In this document: piece after piece, positions 757-16,398 of the stretch | Position numbering within the stretch: position 1 is the first letter of the stretch | Layout of the letters: every line of letters starts with the position of its first letter | DNA from: a virus | Strand: one strand, 5' to 3' | IMG/VR virus record: IMGVR_UViG_3300009177_000119 | Coordinates: 1-23,003 of that record | DNA: 23,003 nt | The notes under the pieces: model-generated | Database searches by the model: none | Seen by the model: only the letters and a program-made list of their open reading frames with translations | What the model was told of the DNA's origin: nothing | Position numbers and translations under genes: made by a program

Positions 757-762
757 AAGGAG
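757..762 (+). promoter_or_regulatory. Ribosome binding site of the PEP-CTERM gene
   Basis: AAGGAG lies 8 bases before the ATG at 771. This near-perfect Shine-Dalgarno sequence supports both the start codon and the reality of this opposite-strand gene. Confidence 0.8.
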
Positions 763-770
763 AACCCATC

Positions 771-1343
771 ATGCGTCGCGCACTCTTACTGCTTACCCTG
801 CTGTCATCGCCTGGATACGCCACCGTGTACGAGCTGGACGCCACGTTTCAGCGCGGGAAAGGAGAAACCCTTGTCATTACCGGACTAGTAGACGATGCCC
901 CGCCTATTCAGCCTTGGTCTCCTGGGCTGAACTGGAGCCTAGATGCTTCTTTTTTGGGTGTCCCCTTCCCAAGACAAGTGCATTTCCAGCCAGGGACAGG
1001 ATGTTATATTCCCCTTATCCAAACCGACCCCGATTGCTACCACGGTAGCCTGACCAGAGAATCGCTTGAATTGGACAGAGGAAGATATTTGTATCTGCAC
1101 TTATCCCGAGACGATAAGGGAACCTTTGTGAGTGGCACCTATTATCTGGAATATGGCTCATTCGATGATGGCATAACAAGCCCAAACGCTGGCGTAGAGC
1201 CCTACTACCACCTTCTATCCGCCACACTGAACCCGACCAACGCAACGCTTGCTCAGATTGTTCCTGAGCCATCCACTTGGATGTTCCTGCTACTGCTGCT
1301 TATACCGTTCCACCTCCAGCGTTTGTATAAGTTACGGTCGTAG
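771..1343 (+). CDS. PEP-CTERM sorting domain protein (phage-carried cargo gene)
   Basis: A 190-residue exported protein. Residues 1-17 form a signal peptide (Arg-Arg, a Leu-rich core, then GYA before the probable cleavage site). The C-terminus has the complete tripartite PEP-CTERM signal: VPEPST at 164-169, a hydrophobic segment of about 12 residues rich in Leu, and a basic end (RLYKLRS). In bacteria this tail is recognised by exosortase/EpsH systems, which process proteins for the outer surface of exopolysaccharide-producing Gram-negative cells. The core (residues 18-160) looks beta-rich, with Cys78 and Cys89 possibly forming a disulfide; its function is unknown. The gene is opposite to all its neighbours, has an excellent ribosome binding site, and its last 44 bases overlap the end of the converging 135-residue gene. 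No exosortase gene is in the window, so the host would have to supply it. A cargo (moron) gene is the natural reading. Confidence 0.85.
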   Translation: MRRALLLLTLLSSPGYATVYELDATFQRGKGETLVITGLVDDAPPIQPWSPGLNWSLDASFLGVPFPRQVHFQPGTGCYIPLIQTDPDCYHGSLTRESLELDRGRYLYLHLSRDDKGTFVSGTYYLEYGSFDDGITSPNAGVEPYYHLLSATLNPTNATLAQIVPEPSTWMFLLLLLIPFHLQRLYKLRS

Positions 1344-1707
1344 CGGAAGCGACGTTTAAATCAAAATCACGCCATGCGTTGTTAGCTATCGTGGCGGTGC
1401 CGTTGACCGTCACGCCAGTTGCATTGGCGGTATAAGTAATCACCTGCCCGGTTGTGTTGACTACGCGAACGCGCCTCCAATGCCCTCCAGCAGTGTCTAC
1501 GCTACCGAGCGCCGTGATGATCTGCGGACCGGTAGCGGTAGTATCTGCGACCGCACCCGCAGGGGCTCCGGTTCGCAGCAATGTATCCGCTATGGACTCA
1601 GCGGCTGTCAAGCTAACGGAAACTGATGCAGTACTGAGAGTTAATTCTATTGACCGACGATTCAGTGAGATGCTCGCCCAGTTTCCAATTTCAGTATTAA
1701 AGATCAA
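1300..1707 (-). CDS. Putative fibre/appendage protein, 135 aa
   Basis: Rich in Thr, Ala, Val and Asn, with alternating hydrophobic residues typical of beta-structured phage fibre or decoration proteins. The central part (about residues 75-100, VVNTTGQVITY) resembles the 'GQ-x-ITLVN' strands of the preceding 118-residue protein, so the two may share a fold. The start appears to be TTG at 1707, 18 bases after the upstream stop, with no good Shine-Dalgarno; translation may be coupled. Its 3' end runs 44 bases into the end of the converging PEP-CTERM gene. The last residues (AGGGTV) look like an ordinary fibre tail, so it is probably intact. Function is inferred from context and composition. Confidence 0.6.
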   Translation of the reverse strand: MIFNTEIGNWASISLNRRSIELTLSTASVSVSLTAAESIADTLLRTGAPAGAVADTTATGPQIITALGSVDTAGGHWRRVRVVNTTGQVITYTANATGVTVNGTATIANNAWRDFDLNVASATTVTYTNAGGGTV

Positions 1708-2082: not shown

Positions 2083-4365
2083 TTAATAACTCCAAGTCTG
2101 CAGCAGCATCGCATCCAAATAAAGGCTACCAGCAGCGGCATCTATCAATTGCAGTTCAAATCTCAACTCAAGGAAAGCCGCCCATTCGGGGGCCAGCCAG
2201 GGTTGCTGCTGCGGAAGATTGATAAATCGCCAAGCAGCATCGCTTGGTGTAAATGTAGCAACAGGTAACTCCGCTCCAGGATTCCCACCATCAATATGAT
2301 AGTTGACCGGATGCGAGACTACGATTTCGTAAGTCGAACTGGCTAAATTTACAGAGGCAGCAGCCAAGTTTAATGCATAGATTTTCACCGTACCCGTAGC
2401 TGTGACATTCCCGAAAAACTGCACGCCTGCAGCATCAAACCCTGACGTCGTTGGTCCTCTGTTATAGATTTCTACTGTATCGCCCTTGGCTGCGCCGGGC
2501 ACGGTCACGGTAGCTAGCAGGCTCCCGTAACTACCAGCAGGTAGCAATACATTATCAAATGTAACTGCCTTTCTATATACGGTCTCTCTGGCCCGCGCCA
2601 TATCAAGAGATGCTCTCCATCCCGGATTCACATTAAATAAACCAGTACCGCCCGCGCTAATTTTATAGACACAATTGAACACGTATTGCCTGCCTGGGAC
2701 AACTGGCTTGATAATACTGAACGCTCTACTGCCGACGACTCCGCCGATCAGGCCAACACGAAGACATTGCGTTCCTTCAAATGCGGTAGCATTGGTGACG
2801 AATAATCCCATCGTGGATGACGATGTCGTGCTAGTAAGCGGTAAGTTATCCTGCACAATACGGATATCGTCATAGAACACCGTCAACTCTGGATCGGAGT
2901 CGTTAAGACCAGCCAATTCGAAGAGCGGGTCATACATATTATTAAATTGTCGAGCTGAGTCAGTATCAGTAATGTCATAGCACAACGTAGATGTTCTGCC
3001 GCTTGCTCCGGTGCCTCCGGTCCAACTCCAGTTTTTCATCTTAAAATTAGGCCATGTCAGAACTGGTGTGCCAGCATTATTAAGACGCGGAACTACCAGC
3101 ACATTAGAAGCCGGCCTCATGTTAATCATGTATGGATTATCTAATATAACGGTCCATCTATCAGTCAGTGAGAAGTATCCGGTTATACCAGATGCGGCGA
3201 GGACTCCTGGTTGAATGAAATAGCAGTTAGTTATAGTTAAAGTGCCATTAGTCCCGGTAGACCCGATGCTATTGCCAATGAACCAAGGCTCAAATTCGTA
3301 TCGCTCTTCGAAATGGCAGTTATCGAAATGCCACCGACCACGAGAAGCCCGGAAGATTGGTACGCCATTACCATATAAATTGCCGCCGTTATTATCAATA
3401 GATACGTGAGAAAAGAACCCGTCCCAAGTAGCATTGTCCCCGCCAATGGACGCACCGGCAGGTGTCTGCCCAGTACCATCACTAATAATTCCGCCGATCC
3501 AACTGAATCTTTCACCGCTGTTGGAATCTACATCTTCAACCAAAAAGCCCCATTGCTGACAACGTAGACTGTGAACATCTCGAAACTGTACCAAGTAACA
3601 ATTAGGTCCACGATGTACGATATTTTTCTTAAATTGCCGTACCTGCACATTGCGCAACATAGTGCGACACGAATTCAACCCGAGCACAATACCGTCTTGC
3701 GTGTGTAATTCCGACGGGCGTCCATCCGTTTCTAACCGGAAATTTTGCAAAACAGTTGTGTCCTTCTCCTTATCCTGTGACGAGCCAACTATTTGCATAG
3801 CGATGGTTGTAGCCGATGTCATCGCGGCGCAATACATCTGTACATCCTGCCCGTCGAATAAGCCAACCTTGTTCGTATTTATCGTTATGCCAGGGTCTCC
3901 AATGTGCAGACTCTGCCCCCCGCCAGCAGGTAGAGAGACGTAACCGTAGTCACCATCAGCAAAGGCAGCACACGCAGCGTTAATAAGTGCGCAATTGGCA
4001 TCAGCAAACGCCGGGTCATTGAAGACAAGTCCAGTTATGGTAGTTGTCCCCCTATTTCCTGAACCACCCCCGCCGCCGCCACCACCGCCAGTAGCGGGGT
4101 CGGCACACACGATCACATCAGTCAGCACCAGCGGCGTGACTCCGGCCCCCGCGATGATCAGCGTATAACGACCGCCTGGGACGTAGAACCAGTACAAGCC
4201 ATTGTCATCGGTAGTGACGGGATTTAACCTGGGCACCGTGCCGGCAGAATCGGCCCACAACGACAACTGCACGTTACCAGGATAGGTTTTGACCGTCACG
4301 GAGACGTTACGCAGCGCATCACCGGTTGTGGTCTGCGCAAAATCTTGGTATTTGATGAGCGCCAT
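2083..4365 (-). CDS. Tail-spike-like protein with probable beta-helix, 760 aa
   Basis: Domain order seen: residues 1-90 are a beta-sandwich-like module (typical of N-terminal virion-attachment or prealbumin-like domains); residues 93-101 are a run of nine glycines followed by SGNRG; about 105-480 is a long Asn/Gly/Ile-rich region with repeated short strands (for example ITNCYF, LRNVQV, LQNFRL) typical of right-handed parallel beta-helices in spikes; about 500-760 holds jelly-roll-like segments with two repeats of a carbohydrate-binding appearance. Spikes of this type bind and often cleave host capsule or O-antigen. I cannot identify catalytic acids from sequence alone. The gene is clearly AT-richer than the head genes (21 of 60 bases are G or C in 3121-3180, against 40 of 60 in 16741-16800), consistent with exchange of host-range genes. 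It begins 3 bases after the upstream stop. Confidence 0.78.
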   Translation of the reverse strand: MALIKYQDFAQTTTGDALRNVSVTVKTYPGNVQLSLWADSAGTVPRLNPVTTDDNGLYWFYVPGGRYTLIIAGAGVTPLVLTDVIVCADPATGGGGGGGGGSGNRGTTTITGLVFNDPAFADANCALINAACAAFADGDYGYVSLPAGGGQSLHIGDPGITINTNKVGLFDGQDVQMYCAAMTSATTIAMQIVGSSQDKEKDTTVLQNFRLETDGRPSELHTQDGIVLGLNSCRTMLRNVQVRQFKKNIVHRGPNCYLVQFRDVHSLRCQQWGFLVEDVDSNSGERFSWIGGIISDGTGQTPAGASIGGDNATWDGFFSHVSIDNNGGNLYGNGVPIFRASRGRWHFDNCHFEERYEFEPWFIGNSIGSTGTNGTLTITNCYFIQPGVLAASGITGYFSLTDRWTVILDNPYMINMRPASNVLVVPRLNNAGTPVLTWPNFKMKNWSWTGGTGASGRTSTLCYDITDTDSARQFNNMYDPLFELAGLNDSDPELTVFYDDIRIVQDNLPLTSTTSSSTMGLFVTNATAFEGTQCLRVGLIGGVVGSRAFSIIKPVVPGRQYVFNCVYKISAGGTGLFNVNPGWRASLDMARARETVYRKAVTFDNVLLPAGSYGSLLATVTVPGAAKGDTVEIYNRGPTTSGFDAAGVQFFGNVTATGTVKIYALNLAAASVNLASSTYEIVVSHPVNYHIDGGNPGAELPVATFTPSDAAWRFINLPQQQPWLAPEWAAFLELRFELQLIDAAAGSLYLDAMLLQTWSY

Positions 4366-4368
4366 TGG

Positions 4369-5436
4369 CTACATCCGCAGCAGGTAGGACATGCCGGTCT
4401 GAAAGAACGTCGGCGCACCCGCATCGCCGTAGAACGTGATGGTCTGAGCGGCGCTGCAGATTTCGATAGCAGAGACGTAGTGAGCGCCGATGCCGGGAGT
4501 GCCATTCCAACTGCCCTGCACGAACCCGGTTGACGCGACGGCCGAATTGCCGAAGCCGGCGAGCCCGCTAATGGTCGAAGTCGAGTCCAACGCAACCGCA
4601 ACCGTCGGCGCTACGGTGCTTGCGCCTACGAGCGGACGGTTTGAATGAGTTGCCGAAATTGCGTCCTCGCTTACCGTTCCACCGATCACAAACGAAACGC
4701 GCGCCGTTGCATTGCCGTTCGGCGCGCGCGGAGTCGCGGCGTTATAAGGCCACGAGTCGGTCGAGTCGCCAAGCTGCCCAGCAACAGTAACTCGGTTGTA
4801 CATATTCCAGACGTTGTGGATCGCCTGCCCCCAGTTCGCCGCAACCGTACCGTACGTCCACTCAATTCCGGCCGTGCCGTTCGAGCGCACCGTTCCGACG
4901 TAGCGACCGCACTTGATCGCCGGGCCGTTGGTGATCGCCACCGAATTGACCAGCACGCCGTTTTGCATGACCAGCGCGGTTCCGGCGCTGCGCGTAGTCC
5001 CGTCCGTCCATGCAGGGCCGCGCGTGAGCGCGAGGGTGCCCGCCGTTGTCGCGCCGAGCGAGGTGTCCCACACGAACATATCGTAATTGGTGTTGTTGGC
5101 CACCGCGAGCGGACCGGCACTACCTACGGTCGTGGCAGTGGTAACGTTGCTCAGCTCGGTGAACGTGAATGTCTTCCAGTTCGTGCCGTTGTAGATCGAG
5201 ATGCGATCTCCGGCATAGGGCGTATAGAAGAACGTGGTGACGCTCGCTACCGTAGAGGTCATCACCGGCACGAGCGTCGTCAGTGTGAGCCGACCGCCAG
5301 CACCGGCATTGCCGCCGATCGACGTACCGTCGGGGACCTGGAACAACACACCCATATGATCTTGGAACGTGGCACCGGACAGGTTGTAGATCGAGTACAG
5401 ACCGCCGAGCCAGTCCTGTACGATCGGGTCAGCCAT
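4369..5436 (-). CDS. Phage structural protein of the virion appendage region, 355 aa
   Basis: The N-terminal 60-110 residues include GGRLTLTTLVPV followed by a strand with FFYTPYAGDRISIYNG. I recognise this arrangement from many environmental phage structural proteins that are generally left unnamed. The remainder is Thr/Ala/Gly-rich and beta-structured; IHNVWNMYNRV (about 205-215) is the most distinctive element. No enzymatic motif is seen. The start codon overlaps the upstream stop (TAATG). It probably forms part of the spike base or a fibre, and the neighbouring 760-residue protein could mount on it. The exact role is unknown. Confidence 0.68.
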   Translation of the reverse strand: MADPIVQDWLGGLYSIYNLSGATFQDHMGVLFQVPDGTSIGGNAGAGGRLTLTTLVPVMTSTVASVTTFFYTPYAGDRISIYNGTNWKTFTFTELSNVTTATTVGSAGPLAVANNTNYDMFVWDTSLGATTAGTLALTRGPAWTDGTTRSAGTALVMQNGVLVNSVAITNGPAIKCGRYVGTVRSNGTAGIEWTYGTVAANWGQAIHNVWNMYNRVTVAGQLGDSTDSWPYNAATPRAPNGNATARVSFVIGGTVSEDAISATHSNRPLVGASTVAPTVAVALDSTSTISGLAGFGNSAVASTGFVQGSWNGTPGIGAHYVSAIEICSAAQTITFYGDAGAPTFFQTGMSYLLRM

Positions 5437-5773: not shown

Positions 5774-5953
5774 TTAGTCTTGCCCGCTGCCCGGATAGCT
5801 CAGCGGTACGAGCTTCTTCATCTTCATCTCGGAAATATCAGCGTTCGATTGATCGCCGATATCCATTCCCGGCGGCATTTCATTGCCGGGCGCCGAGGTG
5901 CCCTTTTTGTTGATGTAACCGGAAGTCTGAAAGCCAGTGTCGTTCTCAGCCAT
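5774..5953 (-). CDS. Probable internally initiated 59-aa protein (C-terminal part of the acyltransferase frame)
   Basis: An ATG at 5953 inside the acyltransferase frame is preceded by AAAGGAG at an 8-base spacing, as good as any ribosome binding site in the window. The 59-residue product is hydrophilic, unlike a beta-helix, and contains GNEMPPG (residues 23-29), matching GNQMPPG of the next gene. The simplest reading is a once separate small gene whose upstream neighbour lost its stop codon; both the fused and the free forms may be made. Function is unknown. Confidence 0.55.
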   Translation of the reverse strand: MAENDTGFQTSGYINKKGTSAPGNEMPPGMDIGDQSNADISEMKMKKLVPLSYPGSGQD

Positions 5954-6394
5954 GCTCGTTGCTCCTTTGTTTAAAATAATCTTGCTGCCAATCACTTTCG
6001 CGTGCGCGGGCACGTTCTTAGTGACCACTGCCCCAGCCCCGATCATCGCGCCTCGGCCAATACGCACACCGGGCAAGATCGTCGCGTTTGCCCCGATCGA
6101 TACAAAGTCTTCCACGATCGTCTGCGGGCGAACAGGTTTAGCGCCGCCCGGCCCTACGTAGGTCGGCGGATACTTATCGTTGGTGAAACACACGTGCGGC
6201 CCGATGAACACGTTGTCGTGCAGGATCACGCCCTCGGGCAAGAATGCAAACGCTTGGATGCTACAGTTGCTGCCGATCAGTACACCGTTGCCGATCCACA
6301 CCGGAGCGTGAATGGTGCAGCCAAAGCCGCACTCGAAATCAAGCAGAACGGAGAGTTCGGGATGCCAGATCGTGCAGAGTAGTCCCTGCTTCAC
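5774..6394 (-). CDS. Left-handed beta-helix sugar acyltransferase fused in frame to a small protein, 206 aa
   Basis: Residues 25-140 are hexapeptide-repeat beta-helix (repeats such as VWIGNG, VFIGPH, VSIGAN, VRIGRG, AMIGAG). The motif GPHVCFTNDKYP near residue 85 is the loop typical of the WlbB/WxcM/FdtC-type N-acetyltransferases, which acetylate 3-amino sugars on nucleotide carriers. The likely role is acylating a nucleotide-sugar intermediate in the cytoplasm. The start is GTG at 6394 with AAAGGA 6 bases upstream, overlapping the epimerase gene by 56 bases. The enzyme proper ends near residue 147, but no stop follows; the frame continues into a 59-residue tail with its own ribosome binding site and ATG at 5953. 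No aminotransferase lies in the window, so the substrate may come from the host or from genes outside. Confidence 0.82.
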   Translation of the reverse strand: MKQGLLCTIWHPELSVLLDFECGFGCTIHAPVWIGNGVLIGSNCSIQAFAFLPEGVILHDNVFIGPHVCFTNDKYPPTYVGPGGAKPVRPQTIVEDFVSIGANATILPGVRIGRGAMIGAGAVVTKNVPAHAKVIGSKIILNKGATSMAENDTGFQTSGYINKKGTSAPGNEMPPGMDIGDQSNADISEMKMKKLVPLSYPGSGQD

Positions 6395-7229
6395 GCATAT
6401 CCTTTAAGCCAGATTTGAAGTCGTACTTCGCTTTGAAACCCAGCATCCGTTCGGCCTTGCTGCAGTCGTAGACGAAGCGGTCTGGGTCTACCGTGCGCTG
6501 CTCTTTGACTTCGATTTCGCCGTCGTAGCCGAACACCTCACAGATCGCGCGTCCGGCATCTTCGGCGCTCAGTTCCTCGCCAGTGCCCACGTTGTAGACT
6601 TGATTCCAGCGGTCCCAGCCGGCGGAAAGGGCCGCGACGTTAGCGGCAGCGACATCCAAAATGTACGTAAAGTCGTTGCTCTGCTTGCCGCCGTACAGCG
6701 TTGGCGCCAGCCCGCGCTCGATACGCTCCAGAAATCCACCGATCAGTCCGTGCGTGCGCTTATCACGCCCGTACAGGTGCGCGTAGCGCAAGATGATGTG
6801 CGGGGTGTGCTCACGCACGTACAGCTCGCCCAGGTACTTGGTGCAGCCATAGACCGAGTTGCCGCACGCGGCGAACGTCTCGTCAATCGGCGGTGCCTGC
6901 TTGACCGGCATGTACACCGAGCCGGTCGACGCGTACACCAGCGGGATCGCAAACTTGCGCGCAGCGGCCACGACGTTCTTGGTGCCGATCACGTTGATTT
7001 CGTGCGCCAGCTTCGGATCGGCATCGGCATCGGCAAATCGCGCAATCGCCGCGAGGTGCAAGATGCGCGTCGGCCGATGGACCGCGACGAAGTCCAGAAA
7101 TCGCGCTTCGTCGCGGATGTCCTGCGCATTCATCAGGTCATAGGAAATCCATTCCGTGATTCCCTTCTTCATCAGCAGATCGCAAGTAGCCGAGCCGACG
7201 AAGCCGTTTCCGCCCGTAATCAGGTACAT
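6339..7229 (-). CDS. NAD-dependent nucleotide-sugar epimerase/dehydratase (extended SDR), 296 aa
   Basis: The N-terminus has the Rossmann glycine motif TGGNGFVGS at residues 5-13. The active-site Tyr127-x3-Lys131 sits in SVYGCTKYLGE, with Ser/Thr residues at 101-104 supplying the third catalytic position. LHLAAIA (57-63) and YNVGTG (near 213) are also standard for the family. Length is near the usual 300-340. Such enzymes epimerise, dehydrate or reduce nucleotide-activated hexoses (the GalE, RmlB and GDP-sugar groups); the exact reaction cannot be assigned. The gene overlaps the upstream glycosyltransferase by 10 bases and the acyltransferase by 56, so the cassette is co-translated. It probably supplies a modified sugar donor to the adjacent transferases. 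Confidence 0.88.
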   Translation of the reverse strand: MYLITGGNGFVGSATCDLLMKKGITEWISYDLMNAQDIRDEARFLDFVAVHRPTRILHLAAIARFADADADPKLAHEINVIGTKNVVAAARKFAIPLVYASTGSVYMPVKQAPPIDETFAACGNSVYGCTKYLGELYVREHTPHIILRYAHLYGRDKRTHGLIGGFLERIERGLAPTLYGGKQSNDFTYILDVAAANVAALSAGWDRWNQVYNVGTGEELSAEDAGRAICEVFGYDGEIEVKEQRTVDPDRFVYDCSKAERMLGFKAKYDFKSGLKDMREAGTTLHDLASRTLRSA

Positions 7230-8116
7230 CGCACCTCCCCCACGTTGAGCGCGATGTCGACTGCGCGCTCGATATTTTTCAGAGAAAACTTCTCACCGAC
7301 TTGCGCACGGTAGAACGATGAGTCGTAGCGGCTGACCGGATCGAACTGCGCAGCAGCTTGCGATAAATCCACAAACCGGTTCACCGCTTCGAACTGATCG
7401 TCTGCGCCCGGCCAATCGTGAATCACGGGCTTGATGCCCTTGGCCATCGCTTCGATCACGTTGTTCGGATTGCCCTCGCTGATGCTGGTGGATAGGCAGT
7501 AGTTCATCTGCTCCCACCACACATCGAGCTGATCGTGCTGCACGTGGCCGTAGATATAGACCTTGCGGCGCATGCGTCTGGCGAGGTGATTCAGATACTC
7601 TGCCATGCACGGGTCCTGCACCTCGCCCGCTATGTGCAGCGTATAGTCCTCCGGCAAGCGCGCGAGAATTTGCAGTGCCAGCGGCAGATTCTTTTTCGGA
7701 TGTACGTGACAGGCCATGCCGATACGCGAGCCGTGAGCGCGGCGTTTAAACGTCCAGCTCTCAGCGTCGGTGCCGTTGTAGATCAGGTGCGTTGGCACCC
7801 GGATTTTCTTAAACGCAAAGTATTCCTGCACGCGCTCCCTGATCCAACTATTGACCAGGATGAGTGCGTCCGCCTTGCTCCAATCTATTCGTCCCAGACC
7901 GCCGTCGAACAGCTCGTAGCGGCGCAAAAAGAAGATATTGCGCGCGCCTTCGACCGGCTGCGTGTGTCCAGCAGCCCAGCCGTGCAGCACGATATCGGCC
8001 TCGCCGGCATTCACCGTCGTGGCAGAGGTCGTGAACTTGCACCCGCGATTGCGAAACGCGTGCGCGAAGTAGGGAACCCAGGCGTTATCCCAGGGGGTTA
8101 GCAGCGCGACTTTCAT
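7220..8116 (-). CDS. GT-B glycosyltransferase (GT4-like), 298 aa
   Basis: Residues 1-10 form the first Rossmann strand (MKVALLTPW). The C-terminal nucleotide-sugar-binding lobe carries the EX7E motif: Glu214 and Glu222 in SEGNPNNVIEAMAKG, typical of GT4 retaining transferases. The segment GMACHVHPKKNLPLALQIL (133-151) is the usual entry into the second lobe. The protein is somewhat shorter than the 350-400 residues common in GT4. It overlaps the methyltransferase by 4 bases (ATGA) and the epimerase by 10. It probably transfers a sugar to a host surface glycan or a virion protein; the acceptor is unknown. Confidence 0.85.
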   Translation of the reverse strand: MKVALLTPWDNAWVPYFAHAFRNRGCKFTTSATTVNAGEADIVLHGWAAGHTQPVEGARNIFFLRRYELFDGGLGRIDWSKADALILVNSWIRERVQEYFAFKKIRVPTHLIYNGTDAESWTFKRRAHGSRIGMACHVHPKKNLPLALQILARLPEDYTLHIAGEVQDPCMAEYLNHLARRMRRKVYIYGHVQHDQLDVWWEQMNYCLSTSISEGNPNNVIEAMAKGIKPVIHDWPGADDQFEAVNRFVDLSQAAAQFDPVSRYDSSFYRAQVGEKFSLKNIERAVDIALNVGEVRCT

Positions 8117-8769
8117 TGCCGCGTCATCACCACAAACGCGTAGGGTCTCTCAGGCTCGCAGTCGAATGTGGTGTACAACTCATAGGACTGCAACAGGAAT
8201 CCCGATCGCTCAATGAGGTGCAAATCATCGAGCCCGAACCTGTGATCGAATTGGCTGTCGTGGCCGCTAAACACTTCCTCAAGCAATGGCATGTTGATCA
8301 GCAACAGACCGCGCTGGGCGGTAACGCGCGCAATCTCGGCATAACCTTGGGCGCGGTCATCTGGATGCACGTGTTCTAGACTGTCCAACGCGATAACGCG
8401 CGTATATGCTCCATCGACGCCCGGCAGTTGTCGCACGTCAGCACACACCGCGTTTAGTCCGAACGTCTTGGCATGGCGTACGAACTTTGGCGACACATCG
8501 GTCCCTAGGTAGTTCCAGCAATTTCCTATACAAAGCTGCATCGCGGTCGCAGCCAGCCCAGCTCCGATCCCAATCTCTAGAACCGTCTGATTGACCCATG
8601 AGGCGTTTTTCAGCAAGCGCCCGGTGATGCGATGCCGCTTCCAAGGGTTATCGCGCAGCGAGCCGTCTTGTGGTGCGTTTTCTTCCGCAACCGTGTCCCA
8701 ATAAGCCGCTTCGCGTTCGTGCCTAGACGAAGTCTCGATAGAAACTCTCCAACTTGTAGATGTGTTCAT
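8113..8769 (-). CDS. Class I SAM-dependent methyltransferase, 218 aa
   Basis: Motif I is VLEIGIGAGLAATAM at residues 63-77, followed by an acidic strand end (YLGTDVSP, about 87-94), motif II-like ADVRQLPG, and a catalytic-region strand RVIALDSLEHV, as in small-molecule class I methyltransferases. Between two glycosyltransferases it most likely methylates a sugar, but the substrate is not visible in sequence. The start overlaps the upstream glycosyltransferase by 47 bases and the stop overlaps the next by 4. Length is normal for a free-standing domain. Confidence 0.85.
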   Translation of the reverse strand: MNTSTSWRVSIETSSRHEREAAYWDTVAEENAPQDGSLRDNPWKRHRITGRLLKNASWVNQTVLEIGIGAGLAATAMQLCIGNCWNYLGTDVSPKFVRHAKTFGLNAVCADVRQLPGVDGAYTRVIALDSLEHVHPDDRAQGYAEIARVTAQRGLLLINMPLLEEVFSGHDSQFDHRFGLDDLHLIERSGFLLQSYELYTTFDCEPERPYAFVVMTRQ

Positions 8770-9826
8770 TCATCGACCAGTTCTGCCGGCGCTTGATGAG
8801 CGCCTTGCGCAAGTCGCGGTGTTCTCGCCAGCGACTGCCAAGCTCCTCCGGTCCCTCAACACTGATGCCAACTCCCTCGCCCACGACAAATGCGGCGCAG
8901 TCGGTTGCGTTCATCGCCACCACCGGCACGCCGGCAGCCATGTACTCAAACAGCTTGTTCGGCATGGCTACTTCCCATTCGCGAGTGGGAATGCTGTTGC
9001 CCACCAAACCCCAGTCGTGACGGCTGACTGAGTTGAGCAGTTCATCGTAGTAGAGCGGCTTGTGCAGTAACGCACGATCGGCGTAGTGCTTGCGCAGTTT
9101 GTCGTCTACGCGCCCAGCGTAAATGTGGAAATCCATGCCCATCGCGGCGGCACGGGTGGCCACATCGGTGTAATCGCAATACGAAAATCCAGTGTTCGCG
9201 CCGGTTGTCTCGGTAGGCAAGTTCACCTTGCCTTCATAGACCAGCCCGCCGTGCCAGTCGCGCGCCTTGTAGTTATAGAAGCGCTTAGGCACATAGCTGG
9301 GCAAGGTGAGCGCCGGTTGATCGAGCGCAAATTCGTCGCTCACCAGCTTGCGAAAAGCATCACCAGGAAACACTAACCCGTCTGCGAGCTGAAAGTTGTT
9401 GCGCTCCTCGCTAGTCTCGCGGATATGCACCTTACCTTGCTCGCGCACGATATTCGCCTCTTCCGGCGTAGAGCGCGCGAGATAGGAATCATGCACATCA
9501 AGAATGACGGGAATTTCTGTTACTTCCTTAATCGCCGTCACGAACCACGATGGCTCGTTGTGGCAATGGAATAAGTCAATCCGGCCCGATGCCGCGTAAA
9601 TGCGGATGGCCTCAATGATCTGCTCGACATCGGTGCACAGCGTAAAGGTTTTATATTGCTCCCAAAATAGCGTGGTCTGCATCGAGATGAGATGCACGCT
9701 ATGGCCGCGCTCGATCAGCGGAATGGCCATCTTGTGCACGCGAATACAGCCGTGCCCAGAAACCATGACGATATTGAGGGGACGGTTACCCGCCCCCTCG
9801 GCACTGCTTGTTACGGCGTGTCCCAC
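8723..9826 (-). CDS. GT-B glycosyltransferase, 367 aa
   Basis: First Rossmann strand at NIVMVSGHG (18-26). FHCHNEPSW (86-94) and LDVHDSY (109-115) are typical of the acceptor lobe of GT4-like enzymes. The C-terminal lobe has MPNKLFEYMAAGVPVVA (288-304), the conserved donor-site helix with Glu294. The start is taken as GTG at 9826 because the next Met (residue 21) would cut off the first beta strand. It overlaps the end of the upstream structural gene by 16 bases. It is the first gene of the glycan cassette and probably adds a sugar to a surface polymer or virion component. Confidence 0.85.
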   Translation of the reverse strand: MGHAVTSSAEGAGNRPLNIVMVSGHGCIRVHKMAIPLIERGHSVHLISMQTTLFWEQYKTFTLCTDVEQIIEAIRIYAASGRIDLFHCHNEPSWFVTAIKEVTEIPVILDVHDSYLARSTPEEANIVREQGKVHIRETSEERNNFQLADGLVFPGDAFRKLVSDEFALDQPALTLPSYVPKRFYNYKARDWHGGLVYEGKVNLPTETTGANTGFSYCDYTDVATRAAAMGMDFHIYAGRVDDKLRKHYADRALLHKPLYYDELLNSVSRHDWGLVGNSIPTREWEVAMPNKLFEYMAAGVPVVAMNATDCAAFVVGEGVGISVEGPEELGSRWREHRDLRKALIKRRQNWSMNEHIYKLESFYRDFV

Positions 9827-15388: not shown

Positions 15389-15553
15389 CTAATCCTCTTC
15401 TGGTAATTCGTCAGGTTCGGTGCACTCTTGCAGCAGCCGCTCGCGATTGGCCTGCCCCATCCAGCGGTAGTTCTCTTGGCTGACGACCTGCTTGATGATG
15501 GGCGGCAAATCTTCGTACTCGTAGTCGACTGCAGTCTTAGGTTTGCGAATCAT
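15389..15553 (-). CDS. Small acidic protein, 54 aa
   Basis: A 54-residue frame from ATG 15553 to TAG 15389 fills the gap between the methyltransferase and the 119-residue gene. It overlaps the methyltransferase stop by ATGA, a sign of coupled translation. The sequence has a YEYEDLPP motif, a helix (KQVVSQENYRWMGQANRERL) and a very acidic end (PDELPEED). Its role is unknown; small genes in this position are common between terminase and portal. Confidence 0.62.
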   Translation of the reverse strand: MIRKPKTAVDYEYEDLPPIIKQVVSQENYRWMGQANRERLLQECTEPDELPEED

Positions 15554-16314
15554 CTCGGAAACGCGAACAAGTTGAACGAAACGGTATTTCCGAAGAGATT
15601 ATTTTTGTTGCCGGCGTAGTTGTCCGGATTAAACATCATCGGTTCGTGCCGGCTCCAGTTGTACCCCATCTTGTCTAACTCACTCATCAGCGTAGCCACC
15701 GAGTGATCGCTATACTCCAAGTAGAGTAACGGCTTGTGCTTGGCGATCGTTCTCGCCGCACCGCGCAGCACGATAAGCTCCGCGCCCTCAACGTCTAAGT
15801 GAATGAAATTTGGCTCGATCGATAAGTCATCAATGGCGACCATAGGCACGGCGACTTCGCCATCGCAAATATGCGCTCCCCCCAAATTCTGGGGAGTTGT
15901 GTAGTCGAGTCGCGGCAGCGCACTCTCACCAGAGCGCGCGCCCAGTGCGGCGCACAGCGCTTTCCAATTATCTGGACAGTTCGCCGTCAGGTTCTCGCGC
16001 AGCAGCTCGTACAGCGGGACTTGCGGTTCGAACGTATAGAACTTGCCCTTCGGCCCGACCAGTTGCGACAGATACACCGCGTGCGAGCCGATGTTGCCGC
16101 CGGCATTGATCACCGTGTCGCCGGGCTTGATAAAGTAACGGAACAGCTCACACTCGCGCTCGGAGTACTCGGCGTACCAGCCCAGACTCTGCGCGATCCA
16201 AATATCAGTCAGTAGGTATTTCATGCGTCCGTAGCGGCACGCTTTTTCGCGCACGAGCGCGGCTATCTGCTCCTCCACCTTTCCTCCATTCACTCCGGGA
16301 ACGTAGTGCTCCAT
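15550..16314 (-). CDS. FkbM-family SAM methyltransferase, about 254 aa
   Basis: Motif I is GDTVINAGGNIGSHA (about residues 65-79), followed by a post-I acidic strand (FYTFEPQ) and the FkbM-typical FIHLDVEGAELIVLRGA, where LDVEGAE is the family hallmark. FkbM enzymes O-methylate sugars, lipids or polyketides; beside phage glycan genes a sugar substrate is most likely. Start choice is uncertain: ATG 16314 lacks a good Shine-Dalgarno, a TTG lies 12 bases upstream, and a downstream GTG has GGAGG close by. It interrupts the terminase-portal block, as inserted cargo genes do, and is coupled to the next gene by ATGA. It lies about 6 kb from the glycan cassette but could act on the same product. Confidence 0.85.
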   Translation of the reverse strand: MEHYVPGVNGGKVEEQIAALVREKACRYGRMKYLLTDIWIAQSLGWYAEYSERECELFRYFIKPGDTVINAGGNIGSHAVYLSQLVGPKGKFYTFEPQVPLYELLRENLTANCPDNWKALCAALGARSGESALPRLDYTTPQNLGGAHICDGEVAVPMVAIDDLSIEPNFIHLDVEGAELIVLRGAARTIAKHKPLLYLEYSDHSVATLMSELDKMGYNWSRHEPMMFNPDNYAGNKNNLFGNTVSFNLFAFPR

Positions 16315-16398
16315 GTGTAGCCGCAACGTATGCAGCGCACGACTGTTTTCCTATTTTGTGGGCTGATACGCAGCCAGCGGTGCTGACTCGCGCGACAC

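Follow-up and report, generated by a model that had tools for sequence, protein, structure and literature searches.

A phage gene for a putatively exported protein with a PEP-CTERM-like tail among the tail-spike genes of an environmental viral contig

The window analyzed here (the whole stretch of DNA, 23,003 bases) is one entire IMG/VR record of a phage from an environmental sample. Within its tail region, a plus-strand open reading frame at 771-1343 encodes a protein with a PEP-CTERM-like tail. On balance we favor the view that it is a phage cargo ('moron') gene, whose product would be exported, processed by the exosortase of the host and released to the cell surface or exopolysaccharide. 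The product itself we judge, with slightly better than even confidence, to be a plausible but degenerate exosortase substrate. We found no description of phage-encoded PEP-CTERM proteins or exosortase substrates in the open-access papers that we searched, and phage-borne PEP-CTERM genes appear to be undescribed there as a general pattern. One seemingly relevant paper title was set aside, as it concerns host genes.

Results

An exported protein with a PEP-CTERM-like tail

In the published model of the PEP-CTERM/exosortase (EpsH) system (PF07589, TIGR02595, NF035944; Haft et al. 2006, PMC1569441), proteins are exported by a signal peptide, retained by their tail and, once cleaved by exosortase, transferred to the outer surface or into the exopolysaccharide (PMC1569441). 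PEP-CTERM proteins and exosortase have been tied to floc and biofilm formation (PMC9850573; PMC12188702). The candidate gene and its surroundings contain the following features:

675-770, no strand: 96-base gap between divergent starts at 674 (minus) and 771 (plus), the likely place of a promoter
757-762, plus strand: Shine-Dalgarno sequence AAGGAG, 8 nt upstream of the ATG (from the sequence)
771-1343, plus strand: cargo gene candidate with an ATG start, coding for a 190-aa putatively exported protein with a PEP-CTERM-like tail (from the ORF list)
771-821, plus strand: predicted signal peptide MRRALLLLTLLSSPGYA, residues 1-17 (by eye and from a hydropathy peak; helix 2-11 in a poor model)
822-1259, plus strand: body, residues 18-163, with two cysteines and no family or structure match
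1260-1277, plus strand: VPEPST motif, residues 164-169, where the sub-threshold PF07589, TIGR02595 and NF035944 matches start
1278-1316, plus strand: hydrophobic stretch WMFLLLLLIPFHL, residues 170-182, the top hydropathy peak of the protein (model helix 167-189)
1317-1340, plus strand: QRLYKLRS, residues 183-190, a weakly basic C-terminus lying antisense to the end of ORF 1300-1707
1300-1707, minus strand: neighboring tail-type ORF, convergent with the candidate and overlapping it by 44 bases (from the ORF list)

The initial annotation had given the gene and its VPEPST motif exactly these positions and residues, and had credited it with an excellent ribosome binding site; the near-perfect AAGGAG is indeed the strongest Shine-Dalgarno sequence among the 12 window starts listed. 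Both hydrophobic peaks of the protein lie at its two termini. An AlphaFold2 model from the single sequence placed helices at residues 2-11 and 167-189, was unreliable over the rest (pLDDT 41.8) and was too poor for a fold search. Scanning of the gap 675-770 revealed no sigma-70-like site, and near 480-770 there was no match to a sigma-54-like site with 3 or fewer mismatches. A sigma-54-type upstream site accompanies most proteobacterial PEP-CTERM members and is not obligatory.

The gene had also been described as coding for a full PEP-CTERM protein. The tripartite tail is there and in order: the near-invariant Pro-Glu-Pro lies close to the C-terminus (VPEPST at 164-169 of 190) and is followed by 13 hydrophobic residues, where about 14 are expected, and then by a weakly basic end. 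The word "full" overstates the case, since the protein scores below every curated cut-off. The hydrophobic stretch encloses one proline and is devoid of the usual glycines, and only 3 of the 8 terminal residues are basic, without clustering. The search against the PEP-CTERM TIGRFAM model that had been proposed as a check was borne out in that PEP-CTERM models are the top family hits, and fell short in that all are sub-threshold: TIGR02595 reached 12.7 bits (cut-off 16), PF07589 14.9 bits with the whole protein and 16.8 with its last 58 aa (cut-off 20.7), and NF035944 14.7-16.6 bits (cut-off 35). The refuting outcome named at the outset, a lack of hits to PEP-CTERM models, is avoided on sub-threshold hits only. 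Because of these scores, the proline and the weak basic end, we refer to the protein as PEP-CTERM-like and not as a proven member.

Nevertheless, the tail resembles PEP-CTERM far beyond chance. We built a custom HMM from 70 viral PEP-CTERM tails, leaving the window tail out. The window tail scored 20.7 bits (E 7e-4) and ranked first of about 49,300 C-termini, a score that is somewhat flattering, as the training tails had been picked by the string VPEPSTW. The runner-up, at 13.1 bits, came from a set of 42,607 shuffled C-termini; among 6,443 C-termini from phage loci related by their major capsid protein (MCP), the highest score was 10.3 bits.

The body of the protein found no homologue in viral contigs, INPHARED phages, plasmids or genome contigs, nor in 398 genomes of one phylum or 151 of one family, and solved structures offered no match (best E 0.9). 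The phage database search suggested initially was therefore negative for relatives of this product. This is not strong counter-evidence, since PEP-CTERM proteins usually have no homologues outside the domain (PMC1569441). A generic PEP-CTERM tail (tblastn, with a low-complexity filter that may hide matches) and one viral PEP-CTERM family likewise gave no match in INPHARED. For an empty-site comparison, relatives of the flanking 1-495, 2083-4365 and 4369-5436 were sought in viral contigs and none were found. A role in lysis or as a spanin was considered and rejected, as no such family matched the ORF.

Strand context and coding potential

As the initial annotation had noted, the gene lies opposite to its neighbors: the ORF list assigns 1-495, 492-674, 1300-1707, 1726-2082 and 2083-4365 without exception to the minus strand. 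ORF 1-495, which is cut by the contig end, looks glycoside hydrolase-like by eye behind a short tail-type start; family models gave no match to it. The final 44 bases of the candidate are antisense to the end of ORF 1300-1707, for which we found no phage relative that could confirm that end. Judged by window codon usage, the annotated frame is the best of six, with a score of -0.09. This is atypical relative to the phage core, where most genes score 0.12 to 0.48, and equal to the score of the spike gene (-0.09). G+C content is steady across both borders of the ORF.

The phage, its relatives and candidate hosts

The phage origin of the window is supported by clear hallmark genes for the large terminase subunit (TerL, phrog_38), portal (phrog_1216) and MCP (phrog_1357), and the candidate lies within the tail region. 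Relatives of the MCP number in the hundreds among viral contigs and also occur in 12 bacterial genomes or MAGs, including Nevskia, Paraburkholderia, Polaromonas and Accumulibacter. Exosortase (PF09721) was detected in 3 of these 12 genomes and not in the other 9, and PEP-CTERM proteins occurred in the same 3. The window harbors no tRNA genes and thus gives no host clue by that route. Its closest relatives, L002 and L003, have the MCP, small genes and 4369-5436 in common with it, arranged in the order seen in the window. L003 additionally shares the portal and the start of the spike, and ends before the position of the candidate gene. The proposed comparison with related phages was informative only in part: PF07589 was detected in 0 of 50 records of MCP relatives, a search that had no phage positive control, covered many fragmentary records and would overlook so weak a tail. 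Together with the missing homologues, this looks like patchy acquisition.

Elsewhere in the window, the minus-strand segment 5774-9826, between the MCP and tail genes, encodes glycosyltransferases, a methyltransferase, an epimerase and a hexapeptide transferase. A different cassette of sugar- and methyltransferase-type genes occupies the matching place in L003 (3666-5739), which points to a cargo hotspot. In the hexapeptide-transferase ORF (5774-6394, minus strand), the reading frame carries on through 66 aa which in L002 and L003 (92-94% identical), as in most capsid relatives, make up a small conserved phage gene; the two may have become fused at the edge of the cassette. A methyltransferase-like ORF (15550-16326, minus strand) lies between TerL and the portal. 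In L105 and L134 the matching slot, with the portal on one side and on the other an ORF in whose sequence we read a terminase-like ATP-binding motif, holds a PEP-CTERM gene.

PEP-CTERM genes in other viral contigs

We scanned IMG/VR for one codon set of VPEPSTW and obtained at least 120 stretches. These yielded at least 76 loci with an ORF of at least 100 aa bearing a PEP-CTERM-like tail, some of which may lie in provirus flanks and not in phage DNA. Seven of 8 exemplars passed the PF07589 cut-off, with the eighth narrowly below. Family matches among the 94 non-redundant nearest neighbors include portal, terminase, tail fiber, primase, ligase and endolysin. TerL (PF03237, E <=0.001) was found in 14 of 50 PEP-CTERM records, 11 of them above the cut-off, and a portal of phrog_1216, the PHROG of the window portal, in 12 of 50. 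Either TerL or portal was present in 20 of the 53 distinct records tested. Besides L105 and L134, the PEP-CTERM gene adjoins the portal in L123 and L158 and is near tail-fiber genes in L125 and L160; in L160 it is convergent with them, as in the window. No exosortase was found in the 50 PEP-CTERM viral records, in keeping with reliance on the enzyme of the host. Dozens of viral contigs within L087-L201 (for example L110, L125, L127, L176 and L188) share one PEP-CTERM body family (TLQIEVFDNGALIDNVTGITTGAASLTANDANF). Some of these contigs carry TerL and portal, and the family would suit experiments better than the window gene.

The presence of PEP-CTERM genes among hallmark genes of other viral contigs makes phage use of host exosortase plausible in general, and phages probably do borrow this sorting system. 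The general case is better supported than that of the window. We also advance a wider proposal, tentatively and at a little less than even confidence: diverse exosortase substrates would be cargo of many phages whose Gram-negative hosts form exopolysaccharide, the sorting protease of the host would serve to rebuild the surface or matrix of the infected cell, and the window protein would belong to this undescribed class as one of its fast-evolving members. With clearer cases at hand (L105, L134, L125 and L160), the question can be put to the test however poor an example the window gene may be. If phages recruit exosortase, they have a way to deliver proteins of their own to the host surface or matrix, with a bearing on superinfection exclusion and on floc and biofilm behavior in sludge and soil.

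A host-processed cargo protein and alternative explanations

We propose that a cargo gene was acquired among the tail-spike genes and would be expressed from its own divergent unit. The signal peptide would carry the protein to the periplasm, where the tail, with its VPEPST, hydrophobic and basic parts, would keep it anchored in the inner membrane so that the PEP motif lies on the periplasmic side. Host exosortase, which such phage contigs do not encode, would then cleave and transfer the protein, so that the body would end up outside the infected cell or lysogen, on its outer surface or in its exopolysaccharide. Such a surface change would affect the access of other phages, adhesion and matrix retention. 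We can only guess that the phage would gain by blocking other phages, by changing adhesion or by holding matrix; superinfection exclusion as the benefit is equally a guess. The spike genes and the sugar-modifying genes at 5774-9826 would fit a life centered on host glycans. The proposal draws on the Shine-Dalgarno sequence, the predicted signal peptide and the tripartite tail, all in the right order and places, and on the minus-strand tail-type ORFs on both sides in a contig that also carries TerL, portal and MCP. Against it stand the sub-cut-off scores, the weak basic end and the 9 of 12 capsid-relative genomes with no exosortase.

Much of the same evidence bears on whether the tail is a sorting signal at all. 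If the tail were instead an ordinary membrane anchor at the C-terminus of an exported phage protein, with VPEPST a coincidence or a decayed signal and exosortase playing no part, the protein would face the periplasm from the inner membrane and might, for example, block entry or modify the envelope. The failure of every PEP-CTERM score to reach its cut-off, the weak basic end and the 0 of 50 related phage records (among which a weak tail would escape) all agree with such an anchor. We nonetheless regard it as rather unlikely, because the tail outscores all others among about 49,300 C-termini by a clear margin, and its motif, stretch and end follow one another in the order and at the spacing that define PEP-CTERM (PMC1569441).

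The origin of the gene is a separate matter. Atypical codon usage, the opposite strand, the missing phage relative, and a position 0.8 kb from the contig end with flanks unmatched in other contigs would all be expected of a host gene picked up by chance or joined by misassembly and having no role for the phage. Yet tail-type phage ORFs flank it on both sides with no room between, the adjacent spike is equally atypical in codon usage, no G+C shift marks the gene borders and similar genes recur inside phage gene blocks elsewhere; we therefore hold this explanation to be improbable. More improbable still is a spurious, unexpressed plus-strand frame. The absence of a homologue, the weak coding score and the overlap of its end with ORF 1300-1707 would suit one, but its overlap with another likely gene is limited to 44 bases, 675-1299 would be left empty without it, the frame is the best of six, and a strong Shine-Dalgarno sequence, signal peptide and tail are all rightly placed.

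Comparison with known systems

Taken as a host-processed cargo protein, the product of ORF 771-1343 is like PEP-CTERM proteins in its predicted N-terminal signal peptide, PEP motif, hydrophobic residues (13, against about 13-14 in known members), weakly basic end and homologue-less body. Unlike known members, it is phage-encoded and sub-cut-off, with a weak basic end and no sigma-54-like site upstream. As in the other PEP-CTERM ORFs of IMG/VR (L105, L125, L134 and L160), the gene is located inside or beside phage gene blocks, and the convergent arrangement with tail genes is shared by L160 and L190. In contrast, the PF07589 cut-off is exceeded by most of the other ORFs, many of which have a body family in common, and outside the tail the window protein matches none of them. 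The sorting signal of Gram-positive sortase (LPXTG) proteins is likewise a C-terminal tripartite one, with a motif, a hydrophobic stretch and a basic end; the motif and the enzyme are different and there is no Gram-positive cell wall, so that the likeness is one of analogy only.

Some phage moron genes alter the host surface, as in serotype conversion and superinfection exclusion. Like these, the candidate would be an accessory phage gene aimed at the cell surface, in a phage that also carries glycosyltransferase, epimerase and methyltransferase genes. It differs from them in that its product would rely on a host sorting protease and not on a sugar-modifying enzyme or a lipoprotein signal.
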